This document shows positions 30,232 to 39,344 of a DNA stretch of 39,344 nucleotides, in pieces. Numbering within the stretch: position 1 is the first letter of the stretch; each line of letters starts with the position of its first letter. The stretch is taken from the NCBI GenBank assembly GCA_018711815.1, contig DVHU01000116.1, positions 1-39,344 on the forward strand, given 5' to 3'. The position numbers were made by a program, and so were the translations under genes. The DNA is from Candidatus Egerieimonas intestinavium. Lineage in GTDB: Bacteria; Bacillota; Clostridia; Lachnospirales; Lachnospiraceae. The notes under the pieces are model-generated. The model saw only the letters and a list, made by a program, of their open reading frames with translations. It was not told the DNA's origin and ran no database searches.

Positions 30232-31227
30232 TCAAACCGCAAATCCATCCAACTCATAATAGGACACATTCTCCCGCCGGTCCAGCCTTCCCAGCACTGC
30301 CACGATAGGCACGCTGCTCTCCAGCAGCAGGGCGTACTGGCCGTAGGGAATCTGATAAGCGGGTTCTCCCACCGGGCCGTCCAGACGAAAGCAGATCACC
30401 CGGTTCCCGGGAACCCGCAGGAGGAAGTGCGCCGGTTCCCGCTCAGAGAAAAGCACCTTCACCTGGATCTCGGCGTCCTCCTTCCCACAGTTTACAATGG
30501 ACAGGGCCTCGTGGCCGTAGGGCTCCTCATTCCCTCTGGGGGGCAAGTCTCCGTCGGCAAAAATCCAAGTCCGCTTTCCGTATTCCATAGGTTTCTCCTC
30601 CTTTTGTCTTTCTCCTGAACTTTCTCTCCCCTCCGGATCGATCCGACGCAAAACCCGGCAGGGATTGCCCGCTGCCACACAGTTGTCCGGTATGTCCCGG
30701 GTTACCACGCTTCCGGCTCCGATGACCACGTTGCTTCCCACGGTAACGCCGGGAAGCACCCGGCAGCCTCCCCCAAACCAAACGTTATCCCCCACGGCGA
30801 TGGGCCGGGCCCACTCCAGCAGCTGATTTCTCAGCTGGTAGCCGATGGGGTGACAGGCGGTGTAAAAGCCGCAGTCTGGCCCTACAAATACATGGTTCCC
30901 AAAGGTGATCTTCCCCGGATCCACGAAATTGCAGCCGTTGTTGGCGTAGAAATCATCCCCCACCTGCACGTTAAAACCAAAACCGCAGAAAATATTCGGC
31001 TGCACGTCCGGATTCTTCCCCACTTTTCCAAAAAGTCTTCGGAGCAGCTCCTCACGGCGCTCCTTATCCCTGGCCGGAGTCCTGTTATATTCCTGGCACA
31101 GCTCCAGAGCCCGGGTCACCAGCTGCTCACGGCCCTCAAAATCAGCCCGGTACACCTCTCCCCGGGCGCATTTTTCAAATTCCTCCCGATCATAGGCTAT
31201 GCCCTCGTACGCAAGCTCTTTTCGCAT
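30232..31227 (-). CDS. Maltose-acetyltransferase-like enzyme fused to an ASRT domain
   Basis: The 331-residue protein joins two domains. Residues about 1-200 are a hexapeptide-repeat acetyltransferase of the maltose/galactoside type: N-terminal Mac helices (KELAYEGIAYDREEFEKCARGEVY), left-handed beta-helix repeats, the catalytic His region FYTACHPIG, and NVWFGGGCRVLPGVTVG, ending AAGNPCRVLR. Residues 214-331 match the ASRT (sensory rhodopsin transducer, PF07100) family: KRTWIFADGDLPPRG, GHEALSIVNCGKEDAEIQVKVLFSEREP, and YALLLESSVPIVAVLGRLDRRE. The domain junction has a strong internal ribosome binding site and ATG. No rhodopsin gene is nearby. The ATG at 31227 follows GGAGGG. It is the last gene of the catabolic operon. 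The substrate is unknown. Confidence 0.85.
   Translation of the reverse strand: MRKELAYEGIAYDREEFEKCARGEVYRADFEGREQLVTRALELCQEYNRTPARDKERREELLRRLFGKVGKNPDVQPNIFCGFGFNVQVGDDFYANNGCNFVDPGKITFGNHVFVGPDCGFYTACHPIGYQLRNQLLEWARPIAVGDNVWFGGGCRVLPGVTVGSNVVIGAGSVVTRDIPDNCVAAGNPCRVLRRIDPEGRESSGERQKEEKPMEYGKRTWIFADGDLPPRGNEEPYGHEALSIVNCGKEDAEIQVKVLFSEREPAHFLLRVPGNRVICFRLDGPVGEPAYQIPYGQYALLLESSVPIVAVLGRLDRRENVSYYELDGFAV
30586..30604 (-). promoter_or_regulatory. Internal ribosome binding site and ATG for the ASRT domain
   Basis: AAAGGAGGAG (30604-30595) lies 6 nt before an in-frame ATG (30588-30586) at codon 214, exactly where the ASRT domain begins. A separate 118-residue ASRT protein ending at 30232 could therefore be made from the same frame. 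Confidence 0.55.
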
Positions 31228-31244
31228 AATCCCTCCAAGCTTTT

Positions 31245-31315: not shown

Positions 31316-32221
31316 TTAAAGTGTAACCCGGTGCCGCCTCAGCACGTCCTTGATGACCTCCATCTCCTCATCGGTGACACTGGCTGTGGGCCGCTTCATC
31401 CAGCGCCGGCAGGCGCCGGAGAGCTCCATGACCGCTTTGGTGATGGCGATCACATCCTTATCCACACAGAAGAATAATTCATCGTAGAAGTCCGCAAATT
31501 TCATATACTTTTCCCGGCTTTCAGCAAAGCGGCCCTCCTGGTAATCCTTAAGCATTTCCAGGCAGAGCCCCGGAGTGATATTTCCGGGAGCCCCCATGAT
31601 AAAGCCCTCTACCCCCAGGCACAGAGCCGGGAAGAACTCAAACTCATCGCCGGAGACCATGATAAAATCCAGATCCTTATCCAGCTTATTCATGATCCGC
31701 TGGATCTTGTCCGTGGTGGTGGACTGCTTTAAGGCGCAGATCTTATCCAGCTTGGCCAGACGGTTCAGCATCTCCCCGCTGCAGTGGTGGGGATTCTCCG
31801 GGCAGTTGTAGATCATAATGGGCAGGGCCGTCCGGGCGTTCAACTCCTCAAAAAAGCTCTCCAGCTCATCATCCCGCAGGCTGAAAAACTCCGGGGGAGT
31901 CACCAGGGCCATGTCCGCTCCGGCCTCCTTGGCGTCCTCGATGTACATGAGAATTTCGTCGATATTGGCCCCCACACACCCTGCCACGATCAGGCCCTTC
32001 GGCGCCTCATCCCGGGTGACGGCGGTGATTTTCTTTCGCTCCTCCCTGGGAATATATTTCACCTCCCCGGTGTAACCTAAGATAAACAAGGACTCCATCC
32101 CCGCCTCCAGACAGCGGCGCACCAAAGCCCTGTAGGATTTCTCGTCAAAACTCCCGTCCTCATTCCAGGCGGAGAGCACCGCCGGGGTTACCGTCTTTAA
32201 TCGCTCAAGCATCGCATTCAT
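31316..32221 (-). CDS. DHDPS/N-acetylneuraminate lyase family aldolase or deaminase
   Basis: The 301-residue protein is a class I Schiff-base TIM barrel of the DapA/NanA family. Seen: the substrate carboxylate loop GYTGE (49-53), catalytic Tyr138 in MIYNCPE, and the Schiff-base lysine K165 in CALKQST. Family members split or condense pyruvate-type compounds, or deaminate pyrroline-hydroxycarboxylate in hydroxyproline breakdown. The location next to an imino-acid-type dehydrogenase favours a catabolic role over lysine synthesis (inference). The ATG at 32221 follows GGAGG at 7 nt; ATG 32212 is an alternative. It lies 35 nt after the M24 gene. Confidence 0.9.
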   Translation of the reverse strand: MNAMLERLKTVTPAVLSAWNEDGSFDEKSYRALVRRCLEAGMESLFILGYTGEVKYIPREERKKITAVTRDEAPKGLIVAGCVGANIDEILMYIEDAKEAGADMALVTPPEFFSLRDDELESFFEELNARTALPIMIYNCPENPHHCSGEMLNRLAKLDKICALKQSTTTDKIQRIMNKLDKDLDFIMVSGDEFEFFPALCLGVEGFIMGAPGNITPGLCLEMLKDYQEGRFAESREKYMKFADFYDELFFCVDKDVIAITKAVMELSGACRRWMKRPTASVTDEEMEVIKDVLRRHRVTL

Positions 32222-32256: not shown

Positions 32257-33432
32257 TTACAGCTCTTTTTCCAGTCTTGCGTCCATCTCCGGGGACAGGG
32301 GCTCGCAGCCGGTCTCCGTGATCACATAGCCGGTCTCCACCCGCACGCCGTTAAACTTCGGATGCCCGAAAATGCTGATGTCGATGGACACGATGGAGCC
32401 GGGCTGCAGAATATCCGTGCCGTTAGGGCCGAAGAAGGGGCGTTCCGCCTCCATCAGGCCCAGGCCGTGTACGAAGGGGCATACAATGTACTGAGTCCAG
32501 TCGTGCTGGGCGAAAATCTTTGCGCCGATGGGATCCAAAGTCTTGCCGCACTCGCCGGGCTTTAAGGCGTCTCTGGTCTTGCGGAACACTTCACGGATCA
32601 CGTTTAAGCAGTCTTTCTGTTCCTGAGTATACTCTCCGGATACGGGAAGGGTATCTCCCATCACGCCCGCATAGCCGTTGTATCTGGGAGCGATGCCTAA
32701 AAGCACCATGTCTCCCGCCTGCATGGGGGTGTTAGAGGCCACGGGGGCCACAGCGTTGCTCATTACCCCGGAGCCTACCATAGTCTGGAAGGCAAAGCCG
32801 TTGGCATTTCTGGAGCGGCACACATACTCGCCGGCCGCCGCCACCTCAATCTCCGTGGCCCCGGGCCTTACCTTTTTCTCCATGGCCAGCAGCGCCTCGT
32901 AGGTCATGCCGAAGGCCGTGCGGATATTTTCCACCTCCCAGGGGCTCTTAAAGTAGCGCAGGTAATCGTACTCGTCGGTGATGTCCACGAACTCGGCCCC
33001 CGCAAAGCCCTCCTTTAGCAGCATATAGATGGAATGGGGAAAATAGAAGGAGCCCACAATGCCGATCCGCTTAATCTCAATGCCCCTCTCCTTGAGAAGC
33101 TTGTTTAAGTCGTCAAAGCCCAGAATGGTGGCGTTGGGATATTCCTCCTCGGGAACCATAAAGGGGGTGAAGCAGTAGGTCTCCGTGATGGCGCTGGCGT
33201 ATTTGGCAAAGGGCGCCGACTCCGGCCCGCCCAGGAGAATGGGATCCGCCTCATTGGCAAATACCATCACTGCCTCCTTCTCAAACTGGGGGCACCAGCC
33301 GGTGAGATACCAGCCGTCCGCCACATTCAGCTCGTCATAATACACGATGGCGCAGTCTAAATTTTTCTCCCGAAGGATCCCTCTCACTTTCGCGATTCTG
33401 TTTTTTGTCTCTTCCAGATTGTAGTAAGCCAT
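32257..33432 (-). CDS. Creatinase/M24 family protein lacking canonical metal ligands
   Basis: The 391-residue protein has the two-domain creatinase/aminopeptidase P layout: an N-terminal domain (1-160, NRIAKVRGILREKNLDCAIVYY) and a pita-bread domain (about 165-391). Of the five metal ligands of M24 peptidases, the two Asp are replaced (G246 and V257 in MVLLGIAPRYNGYAGVMGD), His is kept (H322 in FVHGLGLMEAE), the first Glu is Asp (D351) and the last Glu is kept (E366 in GVRVETGYVI). Loss of metal ligands is typical of creatinase, which splits creatine without a metal. A non-peptidase hydrolysis of a C-N bond is therefore likelier than prolidase activity (inference). The ATG at 33432 follows AGGAGG. 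Confidence 0.88.
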   Translation of the reverse strand: MAYYNLEETKNRIAKVRGILREKNLDCAIVYYDELNVADGWYLTGWCPQFEKEAVMVFANEADPILLGGPESAPFAKYASAITETYCFTPFMVPEEEYPNATILGFDDLNKLLKERGIEIKRIGIVGSFYFPHSIYMLLKEGFAGAEFVDITDEYDYLRYFKSPWEVENIRTAFGMTYEALLAMEKKVRPGATEIEVAAAGEYVCRSRNANGFAFQTMVGSGVMSNAVAPVASNTPMQAGDMVLLGIAPRYNGYAGVMGDTLPVSGEYTQEQKDCLNVIREVFRKTRDALKPGECGKTLDPIGAKIFAQHDWTQYIVCPFVHGLGLMEAERPFFGPNGTDILQPGSIVSIDISIFGHPKFNGVRVETGYVITETGCEPLSPEMDARLEKEL

Positions 33433-33444
33433 GACTATTTCCTC

Positions 33445-34620
33445 CTATAATAATTCATTTTTAAATCTGTATAAATCGTATCTGTCCATCTTGATATCCG
33501 TGGGCTCGCCCAAAATCATCTGGGTGATCAGCTTCCCCGACAGGGGCCCGTAGGCAATACCGCTGCCGCAGTGGCCGGAGCAGACATAAAACCCAGGAAC
33601 CTTCGTGGCGGAAATGATTGGCTCATGGTCCGGCGTCCAGGGACGGAGCCCCGCGTAAGTTCGGATAATATTTACATTGGCAATCATCGGGTAAAAACGA
33701 ATAGCCCTTCGGGCCATGGCCCGGGTCACCTCAAAGTTGGTGCTCGTGTCCGTCCCCGGATATTTGCTGAAGCCGATCAGCGCGTTGTTGGCCCCCGTAG
33801 GCTCCGTCAAAAATCCAATCCCGTATTTCTGGCGGATATTATCCTCCCCGCTTAAGGCCATATCGTTTCTCAGGAAGTTGTAGCCGATCTCGCAGACGTA
33901 GCGGTTCGACACCCGCACATCCGATTCCGCCACCAAAATATCCCCCTTCATACCGGTGACTGGAATCTCCACCCCCGCCATCCGTCCGATGGCCGGGGAC
34001 GCTACCCCAGCGGCATCGATCACGTGTTTCGTGAGAATGTCGCCCTTATCCGTGAGCACCTTCCCCACGGAACCGTCAGGATTTTTCTCGATGCCCGTAA
34101 CCCGGGTAAAGCGCCACAGCTCTCCGCCTAAGCTCTCGATCTTTCTTCCCAGGGCAAAGCCCAGCAGGATGGGGCTTAAGGAGCCGCCCTCGGTAAATTC
34201 AATGGCTCCGTAAATATCCGGGGCCAAGTTGGGCTCCGCCTCGTGAAGCTCCTTCTTGTCCACCAGCCGGCATTTCACCTGATCCGCCTGCTTCTGGACA
34301 CACTGCTTTTTCGCCTGCTCAAACTGCTCCTCATCTTCCGCCAGGGTGAACATTCCGTTTTCTATCCAGTCCACGTCCTCATCAAGCTCGCGCTTCACCA
34401 GATTTTCCATCTCCCTCACTGCCAGCCGCATGGCCTGGGTCACTTCCCCGGGAGCCGTATCGCAGATATAATTATTTCCGTCGCACCGGGCGGAGGTTCC
34501 GGCCACCAGATCACCGGCCTCCACAAGAATGACGCTCAATCCCCGCCTGGCAAGCCAGTACGCATTGGAGAGCCCCACAATTCCTCCGCCTATCACAACG
34601 GCGTCAACACTTTTGCTCAT
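33445..34620 (-). CDS. FAD-dependent oxidoreductase, DAAO family (dehydrogenase catalytic subunit)
   Basis: The 391-residue protein is of the D-amino-acid oxidase/glycine oxidase/sarcosine-oxidase-beta (DAO) family. The FAD-binding GGGIVGLSNAYWLARRG (about 11-27) is followed by VEAGDLVAGTSARCDGN. The C-terminal part has the FAD motif RPWTPDHEPIISATKVPGFYVCSGHCGSGIAYGPLSGKL. With the three neighbouring redox genes it forms a multi-subunit amine dehydrogenase like HcnABC, opine oxidase or D-hydroxyproline dehydrogenase, which oxidises a secondary amine to an imine. The ATG at 34620 follows GGAGTGAGC and lies 3 nt after the upstream stop. Confidence 0.92.
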   Translation of the reverse strand: MSKSVDAVVIGGGIVGLSNAYWLARRGLSVILVEAGDLVAGTSARCDGNNYICDTAPGEVTQAMRLAVREMENLVKRELDEDVDWIENGMFTLAEDEEQFEQAKKQCVQKQADQVKCRLVDKKELHEAEPNLAPDIYGAIEFTEGGSLSPILLGFALGRKIESLGGELWRFTRVTGIEKNPDGSVGKVLTDKGDILTKHVIDAAGVASPAIGRMAGVEIPVTGMKGDILVAESDVRVSNRYVCEIGYNFLRNDMALSGEDNIRQKYGIGFLTEPTGANNALIGFSKYPGTDTSTNFEVTRAMARRAIRFYPMIANVNIIRTYAGLRPWTPDHEPIISATKVPGFYVCSGHCGSGIAYGPLSGKLITQMILGEPTDIKMDRYDLYRFKNELL

Positions 34621-34623
34621 CGC

Positions 34624-35430
34624 TCACTCCTTATATACGTTAAATGCTACAGGTTTGATGGGCATCCGGGCGGTGTCCGGCTTAACCTCCTCCGGCCTTA
34701 TCCCCGTCTCGCTGCTCAGGATCCTGGAGACCAGCTTGGAGCAGGTCCGGCCCTGGCAGAGTCCCATGCCCGCCCGGGTGCGCTTCTTGATGCCCTCCAC
34801 GGTGACAGCTCCCTCCGCAATGGCCCTGCGGATCTCCCCCACAGTTACCTCCTCACAGCGGCACACAATCAGGTCATCCGGCGCCTCCTTCCAATCGTCA
34901 ATGGCTAAAAGCTTCGCCTTCTCCTGATCCTCCGTCAGATTCAGCCGGCGAATACTGCGGATATCGTCGCTGAACTCCTTAGGCACCTCTATGGTCACAA
35001 TGGGAGTACAATCATTGGCCTTGGCATTATTCACCCGCAGTACCCGGGCCTCGCAGACATACTGTCCGGCCCGGTCCACCGCCTTTACGGTATCCCCCTT
35101 TTGGGGAAGGGGCAGATACTCAAAGGGGAAGCTCACCGCCGCCATCTCCTTTGATTTGTCCACCACGAAGATGGCAAGCCCCGGGCACTTGGTAATACAG
35201 GCCCCGCAGCCGATACATTTGCTCTCGTCCAGCACCGGAAGGTTGGTGATGGGATCTCCCACGGTGATTGCCCCAAATTTACAGGCGGTCTCACAGGGAT
35301 TGCAGGGAATGTTCTGGCAGCACTCGATCACCGCCACGGGCCCTTTCGCCAGCCGCTCCTGAGAAGGGTATCTCCCCGCCTCCTTTAACTCAGCGGAATT
35401 TAGATAACCTACCTTTGCAATATCACTCAT
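34624..35430 (-). CDS. Iron-sulfur subunit with two 4Fe-4S sites and a BFD-like [2Fe-2S] domain
   Basis: The 268-residue protein has an N-terminal ferredoxin segment (CCQNIPCNPCETACKFG, then CIGCGACITKCPG) and a C-terminal bacterioferritin-associated-ferredoxin-like domain (VCRCEEVTVGEIRRAIAEGA with GLCQGRTCSKLV, four Cys in C-x-C and C-x4-C pairs). It carries electrons between the FAD subunits of the dehydrogenase. The fusion of 4Fe-4S and BFD parts in one subunit differs from the usual three-subunit hcn layout. The ATG at 35430 follows GGAGGG and overlaps the previous gene by 8 nt. Confidence 0.88.
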   Translation of the reverse strand: MSDIAKVGYLNSAELKEAGRYPSQERLAKGPVAVIECCQNIPCNPCETACKFGAITVGDPITNLPVLDESKCIGCGACITKCPGLAIFVVDKSKEMAAVSFPFEYLPLPQKGDTVKAVDRAGQYVCEARVLRVNNAKANDCTPIVTIEVPKEFSDDIRSIRRLNLTEDQEKAKLLAIDDWKEAPDDLIVCRCEEVTVGEIRRAIAEGAVTVEGIKKRTRAGMGLCQGRTCSKLVSRILSSETGIRPEEVKPDTARMPIKPVAFNVYKE

Positions 35431-36544
35431 GTCTCTTTCCCTCCGCCACAATTCTGTCCTTGGCCTTCTGCCGCCGCTCCCCGAAGGGCCCCAGCCGCAG
35501 GGCCTGCAGCCTTTTTATAATCTCCTGCTTCTTCTGGGCGCCCTCCCAACAGGTCAGGTATCCCAGCTCCTGAGCCATGGCCACGCCGGCCAGCCGGCCC
35601 TCATCCATGGCAGTGCTGGCCTCCTCCACCCCCGCGGTGTCCCCGGCCACGTAAACGCCCTTCACATTTGTCTCCATGTTCTCGTCGTGCAGGGGCATCC
35701 AGCCGCCCAACTCCGGGATAAATCCATTTCTCACCCCCAGCAGGGCGCAAAGCTTCACCTGGGGCCTGAGTCCCGTGGCAATACAGATGGTATCGCAGTC
35801 AATTTTCTTTTCTGTTCCCGGAATCGGATTGAACTGGCCGTCCAGTTCCACAATCACCGCCGAGGCCACCTCCTGGCCTCCCGGCGCCGCGTCCGCGTGG
35901 AGCACCGTGTGGGAGAGGTAGACGGGAACCCCCGCCCGGCGAATTTTCCCCGCATGGACGCAGTAGCCGCCGATCCTTGGCGCCGCCTCCACGATTCCCA
36001 CCACGTCAGCCCCCGCCTGCATCAGCTGGTAACTGACGATCAGGCCCACGTTTCCTGAGCCCACCATCAGGATTTTTCTGCCCGGCAGAACTCTTCTCAC
36101 ATTTACCATAGTCTGAGCCGCTCCGGCGCCCATGACCCCCGGAAGGGTCCAACCGTCAAAGTTGACGGCGTTTTCCGCCCCGCCGCAGGCCACCAGGATT
36201 TTTTCCGCTTCCACCACAAGTGTCTCTTCCGTTCCGTCCTCCTGCTTTTTCACCAGGGCCACCTGTTTGCCCTCCACCACGCCGATGGCCGTGGTGGACA
36301 GCCACAGTTCCACGCCGGCCTCCCGAGTCTGTTTCAGAAGCTCTCTCCCGATGTTGATTCCCCGGGTTCCGGCCTTGTGCTTGGCTGAGCCAAAAAATTT
36401 GTGAATCTGCTTGAAGAGCTGACCGCCCGGGGAATCATTCTCATCCACCAGGAGTACCTGGGCGCCGGTCTTGGCGGCCTCGATGGAGGCCGCCAGGCCC
36501 GCAGGCCCCGCGCCGATAATTAATATCTCTCTTTTCTCTATCAT
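35423..36544 (-). CDS. FAD/NAD(P)-binding oxidoreductase, HcnB/OoxA-like subunit
   Basis: The 373-residue protein is a pyridine-nucleotide-disulfide-type flavoprotein: FAD motif EILIIGAGPAGLAASIEAA (7-25) and VDENDSPGGQLFKQIHKFFGS, the NAD-type motif RKILMVGSGNVGLIVSYQLMQAG, and the second FAD motif VKGVYVAGDTAGVEEASTAMDEGRLAG. It is like the alpha subunits of opine oxidase, HcnB and D-hydroxyproline dehydrogenase. The start is ATG 36544, which overlaps the stop of the [2Fe-2S] gene (ATGA); the longer frame reads antisense-like sequence inside that gene. It lacks the C-terminal BFD domain, which is carried by the next gene instead. Confidence 0.9.
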   Translation of the reverse strand: MIEKREILIIGAGPAGLAASIEAAKTGAQVLLVDENDSPGGQLFKQIHKFFGSAKHKAGTRGINIGRELLKQTREAGVELWLSTTAIGVVEGKQVALVKKQEDGTEETLVVEAEKILVACGGAENAVNFDGWTLPGVMGAGAAQTMVNVRRVLPGRKILMVGSGNVGLIVSYQLMQAGADVVGIVEAAPRIGGYCVHAGKIRRAGVPVYLSHTVLHADAAPGGQEVASAVIVELDGQFNPIPGTEKKIDCDTICIATGLRPQVKLCALLGVRNGFIPELGGWMPLHDENMETNVKGVYVAGDTAGVEEASTAMDEGRLAGVAMAQELGYLTCWEGAQKKQEIIKRLQALRLGPFGERRQKAKDRIVAEGKRHE

Positions 36545-36849
36545 TCTGGCTCCTCCCTGCGGTTTTGTGTCTCGATCACCATGCCCTCCTCCACGGGCGT
36601 GATGCAGGTGCGCACGTTTCTCTGGCCGTTCACCACCATCACGCAGTCCGTGCATTGGCCGATGCCGCAGAAAATCCCCCGGGCCGCGTGATTCTTGCGG
36701 GTGTACCTGTTCACCCGGATTCCCTTTTCCAGAAGCGCCGCCGCAATCATCTGCCCCTTCTCCACCTGGATCGGCACACCGTCAAGGATCACCGTCACCT
36801 GCTGTCCCTCAGGGGCGTCCCCTAAAATCGGATGTTTCTTAATGCTCAT
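36541..36849 (-). CDS. [2Fe-2S]-binding subunit, HcnA-like (Fer2_4)
   Basis: The 102-residue protein has a plant-type [2Fe-2S] motif FCGIGQCTDCVMVVNGQRNVRTC (C-x4-C-x2-C-x11-C) preceded by VTVILDGVPIQVEKGQMIAAALLEKG. It is the small gamma/HcnA-type subunit of the dehydrogenase complex. The ATG at 36849 follows AGGAGG. It lies 23 nt after the binding-lipoprotein gene, so transport and oxidation genes share a message, and its stop overlaps the next start. Confidence 0.93.
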   Translation of the reverse strand: MSIKKHPILGDAPEGQQVTVILDGVPIQVEKGQMIAAALLEKGIRVNRYTRKNHAARGIFCGIGQCTDCVMVVNGQRNVRTCITPVEEGMVIETQNRREEPE

Positions 36850-36872: not shown

Positions 36873-38063
36873 TTATGACTCCGCCTTAAGCTCATCCAGG
36901 GATTTGTTGGTAATACACTCAAAAGCCCCGTCAGCCACCCGCAGGATATATGTTCTCGCCAGCTGATCGTCGCAGGTGCCATCAAAACGGAAATCCATGG
37001 TTGTCCCCTCATAGTCTGTATTTTCCATCATCCACTCTGCCAGGTTATCCTTAGTTGCTCCCTTCTCATAGGCATCAGCAATAGCGTATATAGAATCGTA
37101 GGGTCTGGAAACACAATCATTGGGCAGTGAGCCGTACTCTTCCTCATACTTTTTGATGAACTCCTGAATATCCGGATCTTCGTCCGTGGAGTCAAAACCG
37201 CACACGGTGTAGATGCCTTCCACATCTTCGCCGCCCAACTCGATAAACTTGGGATTATTGTTGGAGATACCGGCGAAGACAGGCTCAAAGCCCTTCTCGT
37301 GGCTCTGCATAGCCAGCAGCGCCGCCGGACTGTACTCACAGGAGAGGAAAACCGCATCAATACCGTCAGCTTTGAATTTGTCTATCTGGGCAGAATAGTC
37401 TTTATCTGTCTCAGGGTTAAAGGTCTCCGTGGGAATATCGGTAAATCCATACCTTTCCTCCAGATATTCCACCATCAGGTTGCAGGCCGAGAGGTCGTTG
37501 GCATTGTTGGCATAGAAGATAGCCGGCTTCGTTATGGTCTCCTCTTCCATAACCGCGTCGATCAGGATTTTCGCCGAATCGCCGTTGCAAAGGCCCATCC
37601 GCAGGAAATTGGTCCATCCGTAATCCGACAGCTCATCCATAGAAAGTACCGTTCCGATGACGCTGATTCCATGACTGATGTAGGTATCCTGAGCCGCCAC
37701 CAGACATCCTGAATTCACATGAGCAATGACAAACTCTATACTGGGATCCGCCACAATTTTTTCAGCAATAGTCACGGACTGGTTGGGAGAAGCCTGATCA
37801 TCATAAGTGACCATCTCAAACTTTTTGCCGTCAACGCCGCCCGCCGCATTAATCTCATCAATGGCCATCTGGCAGCCGTTGACCACATACATGCCCTGCT
37901 CCGCATTGTCGCCAGTCAGGGGGACTGCCACAGCAAACCGAATGGTTTCGCTGTCCGCTCCTTTGTCTTCCGCTTTGCCGGTATCCTCACTAGAATTACC
38001 GCAAGCTGCCAACGAACATACCATCGTCAGTGCACATAAGATACTAAGCAACCTTTTCTTCAT
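36873..38063 (-). CDS. ABC transporter substrate-binding lipoprotein, branched-chain amino acid type
   Basis: The 396-residue protein has a lipoprotein signal peptide (lipobox SLAAC, C21) and a type I periplasmic binding domain (Peripla_BP_6): AVAVPLTGDNAEQGMYVVNGCQMAIDEINAAGGVDGKKFEMVTYDDQ, then VIAHVNSGCLVAAQDTY, and a second lobe with ADGIDAVFLSCEYSPAALLAMQSH. It delivers an amino acid or amide-like solute to a LivHMGF-type permease. Linkage to the dehydrogenase genes says it probably binds the catabolic substrate. The ATG at 38063 follows AAAGGAGGAG. Confidence 0.92.
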   Translation of the reverse strand: MKKRLLSILCALTMVCSLAACGNSSEDTGKAEDKGADSETIRFAVAVPLTGDNAEQGMYVVNGCQMAIDEINAAGGVDGKKFEMVTYDDQASPNQSVTIAEKIVADPSIEFVIAHVNSGCLVAAQDTYISHGISVIGTVLSMDELSDYGWTNFLRMGLCNGDSAKILIDAVMEEETITKPAIFYANNANDLSACNLMVEYLEERYGFTDIPTETFNPETDKDYSAQIDKFKADGIDAVFLSCEYSPAALLAMQSHEKGFEPVFAGISNNNPKFIELGGEDVEGIYTVCGFDSTDEDPDIQEFIKKYEEEYGSLPNDCVSRPYDSIYAIADAYEKGATKDNLAEWMMENTDYEGTTMDFRFDGTCDDQLARTYILRVADGAFECITNKSLDELKAES

Positions 38064-38108
38064 ACTACAAACTCCTCCTTTGTCTTTTATAGATGGTTTT
38101 ATATTCTG

Positions 38109-38813
38109 TTACCCGCCAAAGTACGCCTTTTGGAGGGTCTCATTCTGAAATAGTTTTTCCGCGCTGTCGTGCATAGTGATATGACCCACGTCCAGCACAT
38201 ATCCGTAATCAGCAATCCTCAGCGCCTGCTTCGCATTCTGTTCAATAAGCAATATGGTTATCCCCTGACGCTTAATCTGACTGATGGTCTCAAAAACCTC
38301 TTTTACAATTTTGGGGGCCAGTCCCATAGACGGCTCGTCCAGCAGCAAAAATTTCGGTCTTCCCATAAGCGCCCGGCAAATGGCCAGCATCTGCTGTTCG
38401 CCGCCGGAAAGCAATCCGGCCTTTTGATTTCTCCGTTCTTTCAGGATGGGGAACTGCTGATAGTACTTCTCTATGTCGGACTGGATTTCATTGTCCTTTC
38501 GGTTGTACGCGCCCATTTTTAGATTTTCATAGACCGTCTGCCGGGGAAAAATCCGCCGTCCCTCCGGGCACTGAATGATCCCTCGCTTAAAAATTTCGTG
38601 GGTGGGCAGTCCGGCTATATTTTCCCCATTGAACAAAATTTCTCCTTTAAACGGCTTCATTAGCCCAGACAAGGTTTTGACCAGTGTAGATTTTCCAGCT
38701 CCGTTCGCCCCCAAGAGACAGGTCAGCTTTCCCTCCTCAACATCAAGAGAAATGCCGTTCAATGCTGAAATCTGTCCATATTTAACTACTAGATTTTTCA
38801 CTTCAAGCAACAC
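38109..38813 (-). CDS. livF: LivF-type ABC transporter ATP-binding protein
   Basis: The 234-residue ATPase is of the LivF group: Walker A GANGAGKSTLVKT, Q-loop-side CPEGRRIFPRQTVYENLKMGAY, signature LSGGEQQMLAICRALM, Walker B LLLDEPSMGLAP and ILLIEQNAKQAL. It is paired with the LivG-type ATPase just upstream, with a 3-nt gap. The start is GTG 38813, 9 nt after AGGAGG; there is no better ATG. Confidence 0.92.
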   Translation of the reverse strand: MLLEVKNLVVKYGQISALNGISLDVEEGKLTCLLGANGAGKSTLVKTLSGLMKPFKGEILFNGENIAGLPTHEIFKRGIIQCPEGRRIFPRQTVYENLKMGAYNRKDNEIQSDIEKYYQQFPILKERRNQKAGLLSGGEQQMLAICRALMGRPKFLLLDEPSMGLAPKIVKEVFETISQIKRQGITILLIEQNAKQALRIADYGYVLDVGHITMHDSAEKLFQNETLQKAYFGG

Positions 38814-38816
38814 GTA

Positions 38817-39344
38817 TCATTCCTCCTCTGCACCGATATAGGCTTCTATAACCTGTGGATTGCTGGAAATCTTTTCCGGTTCGTCCAGGGCGATCAGCTT
38901 GCCAAAGTTCAACACTGCCAGATGATGGCACAGCCCCAACATAAATTTGATGTTATGCTCAATGACAACCACCGCGGGACCGCGTCTGCGGATTCCTTCA
39001 ATAAGGTTCATCAAATCCACAGTCTCCTGGGGATTCATTCCTGCCGTAGGCTCATCCAGAAGAATCATCCTCGGATCGCTGGCCAGGGCTCTGGCAATTT
39101 CTACTTTTCTCTGAGTTCCATAGGGGAGGCTCCCCGAAATTTCATCGGCCACATTTCCGATCTCCAGAAAATCAAGTATCTCCCGGGCCTTCTCCACCGC
39201 CTTCTTTTCTTCCGCTCTCTGGGCTGGTGTGCGCAAAAAAATCTGAAAGATATTTGTCTTTAAAGTTTTGTGCATTCCCACCAGTACATTCTCCAAAACA
39301 GTCATCTGGCTGAATACACGAATATTCTGAAAGGTTCTGGCCAG
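38817..39344 (-). CDS. livG: LivG-type ABC transporter ATP-binding protein (partial, runs off the window)
   Basis: The frame is open through the right edge, so the N-terminal part with Walker A is missing. The visible 175 residues begin LARTFQNIRVFSQMTVLENVLVGMH, the conserved LivG Q-loop region, and go on to the signature SGSLPYGTQRKVEIARALA, Walker B MILLDEPTAGMNP, the switch VVIEHNIKFMLGLCHHLAVL and the LivG ending. The other permease genes (livH, livM) would be expected just beyond the window. Confidence 0.92.
   Translation of the reverse strand: MARTFQNIRVFSQMTVLENVLVGMHKTLKTNIFQIFLRTPAQRAEEKKAVEKAREILDFLEIGNVADEISGSLPYGTQRKVEIARALASDPRMILLDEPTAGMNPQETVDLMNLIEGIRRRGPAVVVIEHNIKFMLGLCHHLAVLNFGKLIALDEPEKISSNPQVIEAYIGAEEE

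Follow-up and report, generated by a model that had tools for sequence, protein, structure and literature searches.

The window, that is the whole stretch of 39,344 nucleotides analysed here, comes from Candidatus Egerieimonas intestinavium (contig DVHU01000116.1). On its minus strand the open reading frame 30232-31227, with an ATG start and zero internal stops, encodes a protein of 331 amino acids in which a maltose/galactoside O-acetyltransferase (MAT) domain is joined in frame to an ASRT domain. Such a fusion had been proposed in a preliminary description of the locus; Pfam finds both domains, and the arrangement is found again in two further genomes, here called G223 and G303. Along the protein, MAT (residues 14-198) is followed by a disordered linker of about 15 residues and by ASRT (residues 217-320). 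The features of the locus are the following, in the order in which they lie on the minus strand.

36873-39344, minus strand: branched-chain-amino-acid-type ABC transporter (binding protein, two ATPases), from domain matches; conserved in G223
33445-36849, minus strand: FAD/Fe-S dehydrogenase set (DAO, BFD + 4Fe-4S, Pyr_redox, Fer2_4), sarcosine-oxidase-like, from domain matches; conserved in G223 and G303
32257-33432, minus strand: M24 creatinase/prolidase-fold protein without the prolidase metal ligands, from Pfam and alignment to 1pv9; beside ASRT in many genomes
31316-32221, minus strand: DHDPS/N-acetylneuraminate-lyase-type aldolase family, gene upstream of the fusion (PF00701, E 4.9e-40); same position in G223 and G303
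31231-31236, minus strand: Shine-Dalgarno GGAGGG for the full-length fusion, duplex energy -9.5
30232-31227, minus strand: fusion gene, MAT acetyltransferase plus ASRT, 331 residues (open reading frame; Pfam Mac, Hexapep, ASRT; AlphaFold2 model, pLDDT 85)
30634-31188, minus strand: maltose/galactoside O-acetyltransferase domain, residues 14-198 (Pfam; structural match to 3srt, Z 29.0, rmsd 1.6, 186 residues)
30589-30633, minus strand: linker, residues 199-213, differing among the fusions in their alignment; model pLDDT below 50 at residues 206-214
30595-30605, minus strand: Shine-Dalgarno AAAAGGAGGAG inside the frame, 6 nt from the internal ATG, duplex energy -11.6; AAAAGGAG kept in all three fusions
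30268-30579, minus strand: ASRT domain (PF07100) with pocket motif GHEALSIVN (Pfam; match to TM1070, 1nc7, Z 17.0, rmsd 2.1, 112 residues)
30232-30588, minus strand: predicted second product, free ASRT of 118 residues (Met aligned with stand-alone ASRTs; start-like RNA context)

Domains of the fused protein

All Pfam matches in the 331-residue protein exceed the curated cut-offs. Mac (PF12464) covers residues 19-70 (E 6e-12, 46.1 bits) and Hexapep (PF00132) residues 145-177 (E 1.2e-9, 37.9 bits); both the Mac cap and the hexapeptide repeats of the left-handed beta-helix are present. The closest solved structure by sequence is the maltose O-acetyltransferase of Clostridioides difficile, 3srt (E 2.1e-55), which is matched by residues 13-198 of the model, and His126 (30850-30852) aligns with the catalytic His in the YTAYHPI motif of that enzyme. 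The NCBI equivalog cut-offs for maltose and galactoside O-acetyltransferase are missed (156 of 314 and 152 of 347 bits); judged by its sequence the domain is a member of the family, and these scores do not support an assignment of its substrate. MAT enzymes are trimers.

ASRT is matched at residues 217-320 with E 6e-19 in the whole protein (68.6 bits against a cut-off of 25), and the last 118 residues alone, where the domain had been placed beforehand, match PF07100 at 4.4e-20. The nearest solved structures by sequence are Anabaena ASRT and Thermotoga TM1070, and residues 214-331 of the model adopt the same beta-sandwich fold (1nc7_A, Z 17.0; 2ii8_D, Z 13.7). The AlphaFold2 model of the fusion, built on a 17-row alignment, has a mean pLDDT of 85 and contains two confident domains, whose relative placement is unreliable at its pTM of 0.63.

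In the signature SHEshChhN of the first ASRT-like family, His and Cys contact the ligand, and the pocket His of TM1070 is reported to contact a bound diol (PMC2739507). The corresponding GHEALSIVN of the fused ASRT keeps the His, Glu and Asn, and with them the diol-contacting His of TM1070, but not the Cys, which is replaced by Ser (Thr in G303); the full signature is therefore absent, which leaves membership of the Pfam family unaffected. Binding of small molecules (sugars) by ASRT is a prediction from 2009 (PMC2739507), which together with the operon context makes a ligand-sensing role for the fused ASRT plausible. The solved ASRT proteins are tetramers (PMC2739507, PMC8660804).

Among 78 ASRT frames taken from fetched loci, two kinds are present. 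The first carries SHE..C..LN, and some of its members lie near an FGGY kinase gene; the second carries GHE, has Ser, Thr, Met, Ile or Val where the Cys would be, and in most cases directly adjoins an M24 gene on its upstream or downstream side. A small number of SHE-type proteins are without the Cys (L021, L022). The fused ASRT belongs to the GHE kind. A second ASRT in the window genome (L089:5354-5701, contig C57) has a canonical SHEAVCFLN and lies beside a branched-chain-amino-acid-type ABC transporter. A rhodopsin search gave no match in these genomes, but none in control genomes either.

Operon, relatives and age of the fusion

In all three genomes the fusion gene is preceded by the M24 and DHDPS-family genes, and upstream of these lie the same FAD/Fe-S dehydrogenase genes. 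Beyond the dehydrogenase genes, G223 has a transporter set resembling that of the window, and an FGGY kinase gene comes after its fusion. When the M24 protein of the window is aligned to 1pv9, three of the positions that we take to be the metal ligands of prolidase are replaced (Asp by Gly, Asp by Val, Glu by Asp); the protein is therefore probably creatinase-like and metal-free, and not a peptidase. The creatinase type of M24 is metal-free. The stretch 33445-36849 contains four genes resembling sarcosine oxidase or hydroxyproline dehydrogenase, in an apparently anaerobic gut bacterium. Related operons add genes for L-rhamnose mutarotase, creatininase-family and M81 (MlrC) proteins. The gene content suggests that the operon may catabolize a nitrogen-linked or sugar-like compound.

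The fusions of G223 (contig C55) and G303 (contig C102) both have 325 residues, and the former is 79% identical over residues 9-330. G223 is probably Lachnoclostridium sp. An138; together with G303 it represents a second genus of the same family, Lachnospiraceae. PF07100 matches are present in 15 of 299 genomes sampled from the family, 7 of 392 from the order, 71 of 391 from the class and 12 of 299 from the phylum, samples which overlap; three genera were searched besides. No MAT-ASRT fusion beyond these three was found in the PF07100 surveys of these samples and genera. Surveyed for split and fused forms, the homologues give three fusions, and clear ASRT matches are stand-alone in every other ASRT-bearing genome of the survey; weak matches in two long open frames (G194 C77, G924 C9) are outside the fusion count. 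An exact-match scan of genome contigs with peptide patterns missed the An138 fusion, so absence from that scan means little.

The ASRT domains of the three fusions group in a single clade (SH-aLRT 96.7, bootstrap 98), and 56-64% of fourfold-degenerate sites differ between pairs of fusions, that is about 1.0-1.4 changes per site by Jukes-Cantor. From the two genera, the single ASRT clade and the synonymous divergence it follows that the fusion is old, most simply with a single origin. A sequencing or assembly error is rejected as its source because three genomes carry the identical architecture, and the same divergence and spread over two genera led us to reject a recent loss of a stop codon. 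Of the preliminary description, the fusion, the site of the internal start and the idea of two products are supported; a recent origin, which it gave as a possibility, is not.

ASRT, M24 and MAT genes are found together repeatedly. A GHE-type ASRT gene directly adjoins M24, often with M81/MlrC, in L031-L041, L082, L083 and L086, and this pair is conserved in Lachnospiraceae, Oscillospiraceae and one Bacteroidales MAG. In G051 the genes for M24, ASRT and an unfused MAT stand in a row, in an order reversed relative to the fusion; an unfused MAT lies in the same kind of neighbourhood in G227 (C26), and An138 has a second, unfused MAT after two M24 genes, with no ASRT. These three unfused MATs join the fused ones in the tree (100/100). 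An ASRT remnant was looked for behind the unfused MAT of An138 and none was found; this copy may be older than the fusion or may have lost its ASRT, MAT-tree support being low (53.6/42 and 88.1/55).

ASRT-M24a operons (L088, L090, L091) contain a distinct MAT lineage (100/99). In these second-lineage operons Pfam confirms a creatininase-family gene in G038, and G227 C61 has a protein similar to it. L091 contains creatininase-family and L-rhamnose mutarotase-family genes. Two separate recruitments of MAT support a functional tie between MAT and the ASRT/M24 pair, although the cases are few in total.

The domain junction as a probable internal start

The sequence at the junction is CAAAAGGAGGAGAAACCT-ATG; 6 nt separate AAGGAGGAG from the in-frame ATG at 30588, exactly as had been described for this site. 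In longer form it reads AAAAGGAGGAGAAACCT-ATG in the window, AAAAGGAGAGATGT-ATG in G303 and AAAAGGAGAAGGGT-ATG in G223. In alignments the junction Met coincides with the first residue of stand-alone ASRTs, for example MKYGKKNWVFCDGDLPP; a Shine-Dalgarno (SD) site and a start codon in frame, as in a nested gene, are conserved in all three orthologues, whose linker is short and variable. A conserved long linker devoid of an internal ribosome binding site, which would have counted against the preliminary description, is not what the fusions have.

Background statistics were drawn from sampled contigs of each genome. In the window genome, 97% of the sampled predicted gene starts have a weaker SD than the junction, and an SD as strong stands before only 2 of the 694 internal in-frame ATGs. 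The duplex energies with the anti-SD are -11.6 in the window and -8.7 in both G303 and G223, and equally strong sites precede 0.3% of internal in-frame ATGs in the window genome and 1.7% in each of G223 and G303. When a strong SD is combined with low local RNA structure, a single ATG passes among 680 (window genome), 958 (G223) and 804 (G303), which is taken to be the junction itself, lying in the sampled sequence. In each of the three fusions the junction falls within the part of the gene that has the least RNA structure. Against internal ATGs matched for GC, the MFE fractions are 0.074, 0.011 and 0.032, and the structure signal is weakened, not removed.

These properties could also belong to a gene with the fusion as its only product, in which the SD-like run would be part of a Lys/Glu-rich, weakly structured linker kept for its polarity and flexibility. 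The linker is disordered in the model, and a strong SD is unsurprising by itself given its Lys and Glu residues: when synonymous codons were resampled with the usage of each genome, an equally strong SD arose with P 0.45 in the window, 0.11 in G303 and 0.30 in G223. Moreover, a similarly strong SD precedes a GTG inside the MAT domain (residue 157 in the window, residue 152 in G223 and G303), and SD strength alone is consequently weak evidence; as proof of internal initiation we reject it, since Lys and Glu codons readily yield such sites. The argument for an internal start rests instead on the combination of SD and low structure and on conservation. Under the same resampling the low structure has P 0.027 in the window, 0.10 in G223 and 0.0013 in G303, being unusual in two of three, and SD and low structure jointly have P 0.007 in the window, 0.026 in G223 and 0 of 3000 in G303, tests which are not independent because the three genomes are related. 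The codon choice at the junction adds start-likeness beyond what the amino acids require, and both the Met and the 8-mer AAAAGGAG are retained in all three fusions at about one synonymous change per site, a divergence (0.56-0.64 of fourfold sites) at which a neutral relic should have faded. All this speaks against a fusion-only product, which we consider somewhat unlikely, and the free ASRT is probably made from the internal start. As a prediction, the synthesis of two products from one frame is supported by the three genomes, the start-like RNA context and the codon choice.

A second alternative accepts two products but gives the fusion little importance: after loss of a stop codon the join would be nearly neutral, yielding mostly MAT that carries an inconsequential tail, together with free ASRT, and the two would work separately. 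The stand-alone state of clear ASRT matches in all other surveyed ASRT-bearing genomes agrees with it, as does the close unfused MAT copy retained by An138, but the frame is open across a variable linker in three genomes that differ by about one synonymous change per site, a divergence at which stop codons would be expected in a neutral join; we hold this alternative to be improbable. A third proposal makes free ASRT a regulator that binds DNA of the operon, the fused copy tying MAT to regulation. It would have a parallel in Anabaena ASRT, which binds and loops DNA, with C-terminal residues reported to contact it, and alters reporter expression (PMC8660804), but GHE-type ASRTs adjoin metabolic genes and the proposal is very improbable.

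Proposed working and known systems

Our preferred reading, to which we give a probability of roughly 0.6, is that of an old fusion of single origin which has kept an inner ribosome binding site and ATG and gives two proteins, the 331-residue MAT-ASRT and a 118-residue ASRT, working as follows. In a few Lachnospiraceae, a sugar O-acetyltransferase of a catabolic operon would have been joined to the ASRT of the same pathway module, and the joined frame would have preserved the ribosome binding site and start codon from the time when ASRT was a gene of its own. The MAT domain may acetylate a sugar-like compound that the operon uses or forms as a by-product, and ASRT may bind the same or a related small molecule, either holding and presenting it or tuning activity to its level. 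Since MAT forms trimers and ASRT tetramers, fused subunits alone would be expected to cross-link; free ASRT would complete the ASRT oligomers and relieve this. That selection kept one gene giving two proteins for such a mixed assembly, in which ASRT oligomers would connect trimeric MAT and a metabolite bound to ASRT would tune it, is a tentative extension which falls short of even odds.

The ligand and the general function of ASRT in bacteria without rhodopsin have been an open question since at least 2009. The covalent link to MAT and the recurring link of GHE-type ASRT, M24 and MAT imply that the ligand should be found among the substrates and products of the pathway; the fusion, together with the neighbourhoods of ASRT, metal-free M24 and MAT, narrows the search for it. 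If the mixed assembly is true, no earlier intracellular ASRT would have had an enzyme attached directly to it, and the fusion would open a route to the ligand. An138 being a probable carrier of the fusion, tests in a native background may be possible.

The component parts are known, and the paper defining the superfamily does not mention the MAT-ASRT architecture in its main text (PMC2739507); no report of ASRT joined to an acetyltransferase was found in the literature searched. With MAT and LacA (3SRT, 1OCX, 1KQA) the fusion has in common the Mac cap, the hexapeptide repeats and the position of the catalytic His, whereas only the fusion protein bears a C-terminal ASRT domain and its operon holds M24, DHDPS-family and FAD/Fe-S dehydrogenase genes. 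With ASRT and ASRAH proteins (PF07100; Anabaena ASRT, 2II7; TM1070, 1NC7) it shares the beta-sandwich fold and the signature Trp, His, Glu and Asn, but the intracellular family is described as stand-alone (PMC2739507), whereas here ASRT is attached to an intracellular enzyme in three genomes, its free form being a prediction, and has Ser or Thr for the pocket Cys. Compared with the SHE..C subfamily, the fused copy belongs to the GHE subfamily that lies beside M24 genes.

ASRAH domains fused to an amidase or a glycosyltransferase are known from secreted or cell-surface families (PMC2739507); an ASRAH-type domain and a carbohydrate-active enzyme are common to both cases, but here the domain is of the intracellular ASRT-like family and the acetyltransferase of cytoplasmic type. 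In-frame nested genes with internal starts are represented by lysA241 of Ms6 (PMC3111421) and by Cas11b within cas8b (PMC11899642). As in those, a single frame contains an inner SD or SD-like site and an ATG, and the C-terminal part would be the second protein; those cases are shown by experiment and the present one is predicted from sequence. Its inner product would match a protein that has its own gene in relatives, and the MAT-ASRT fusion offers a clean case for how fused genes retain internal starts.
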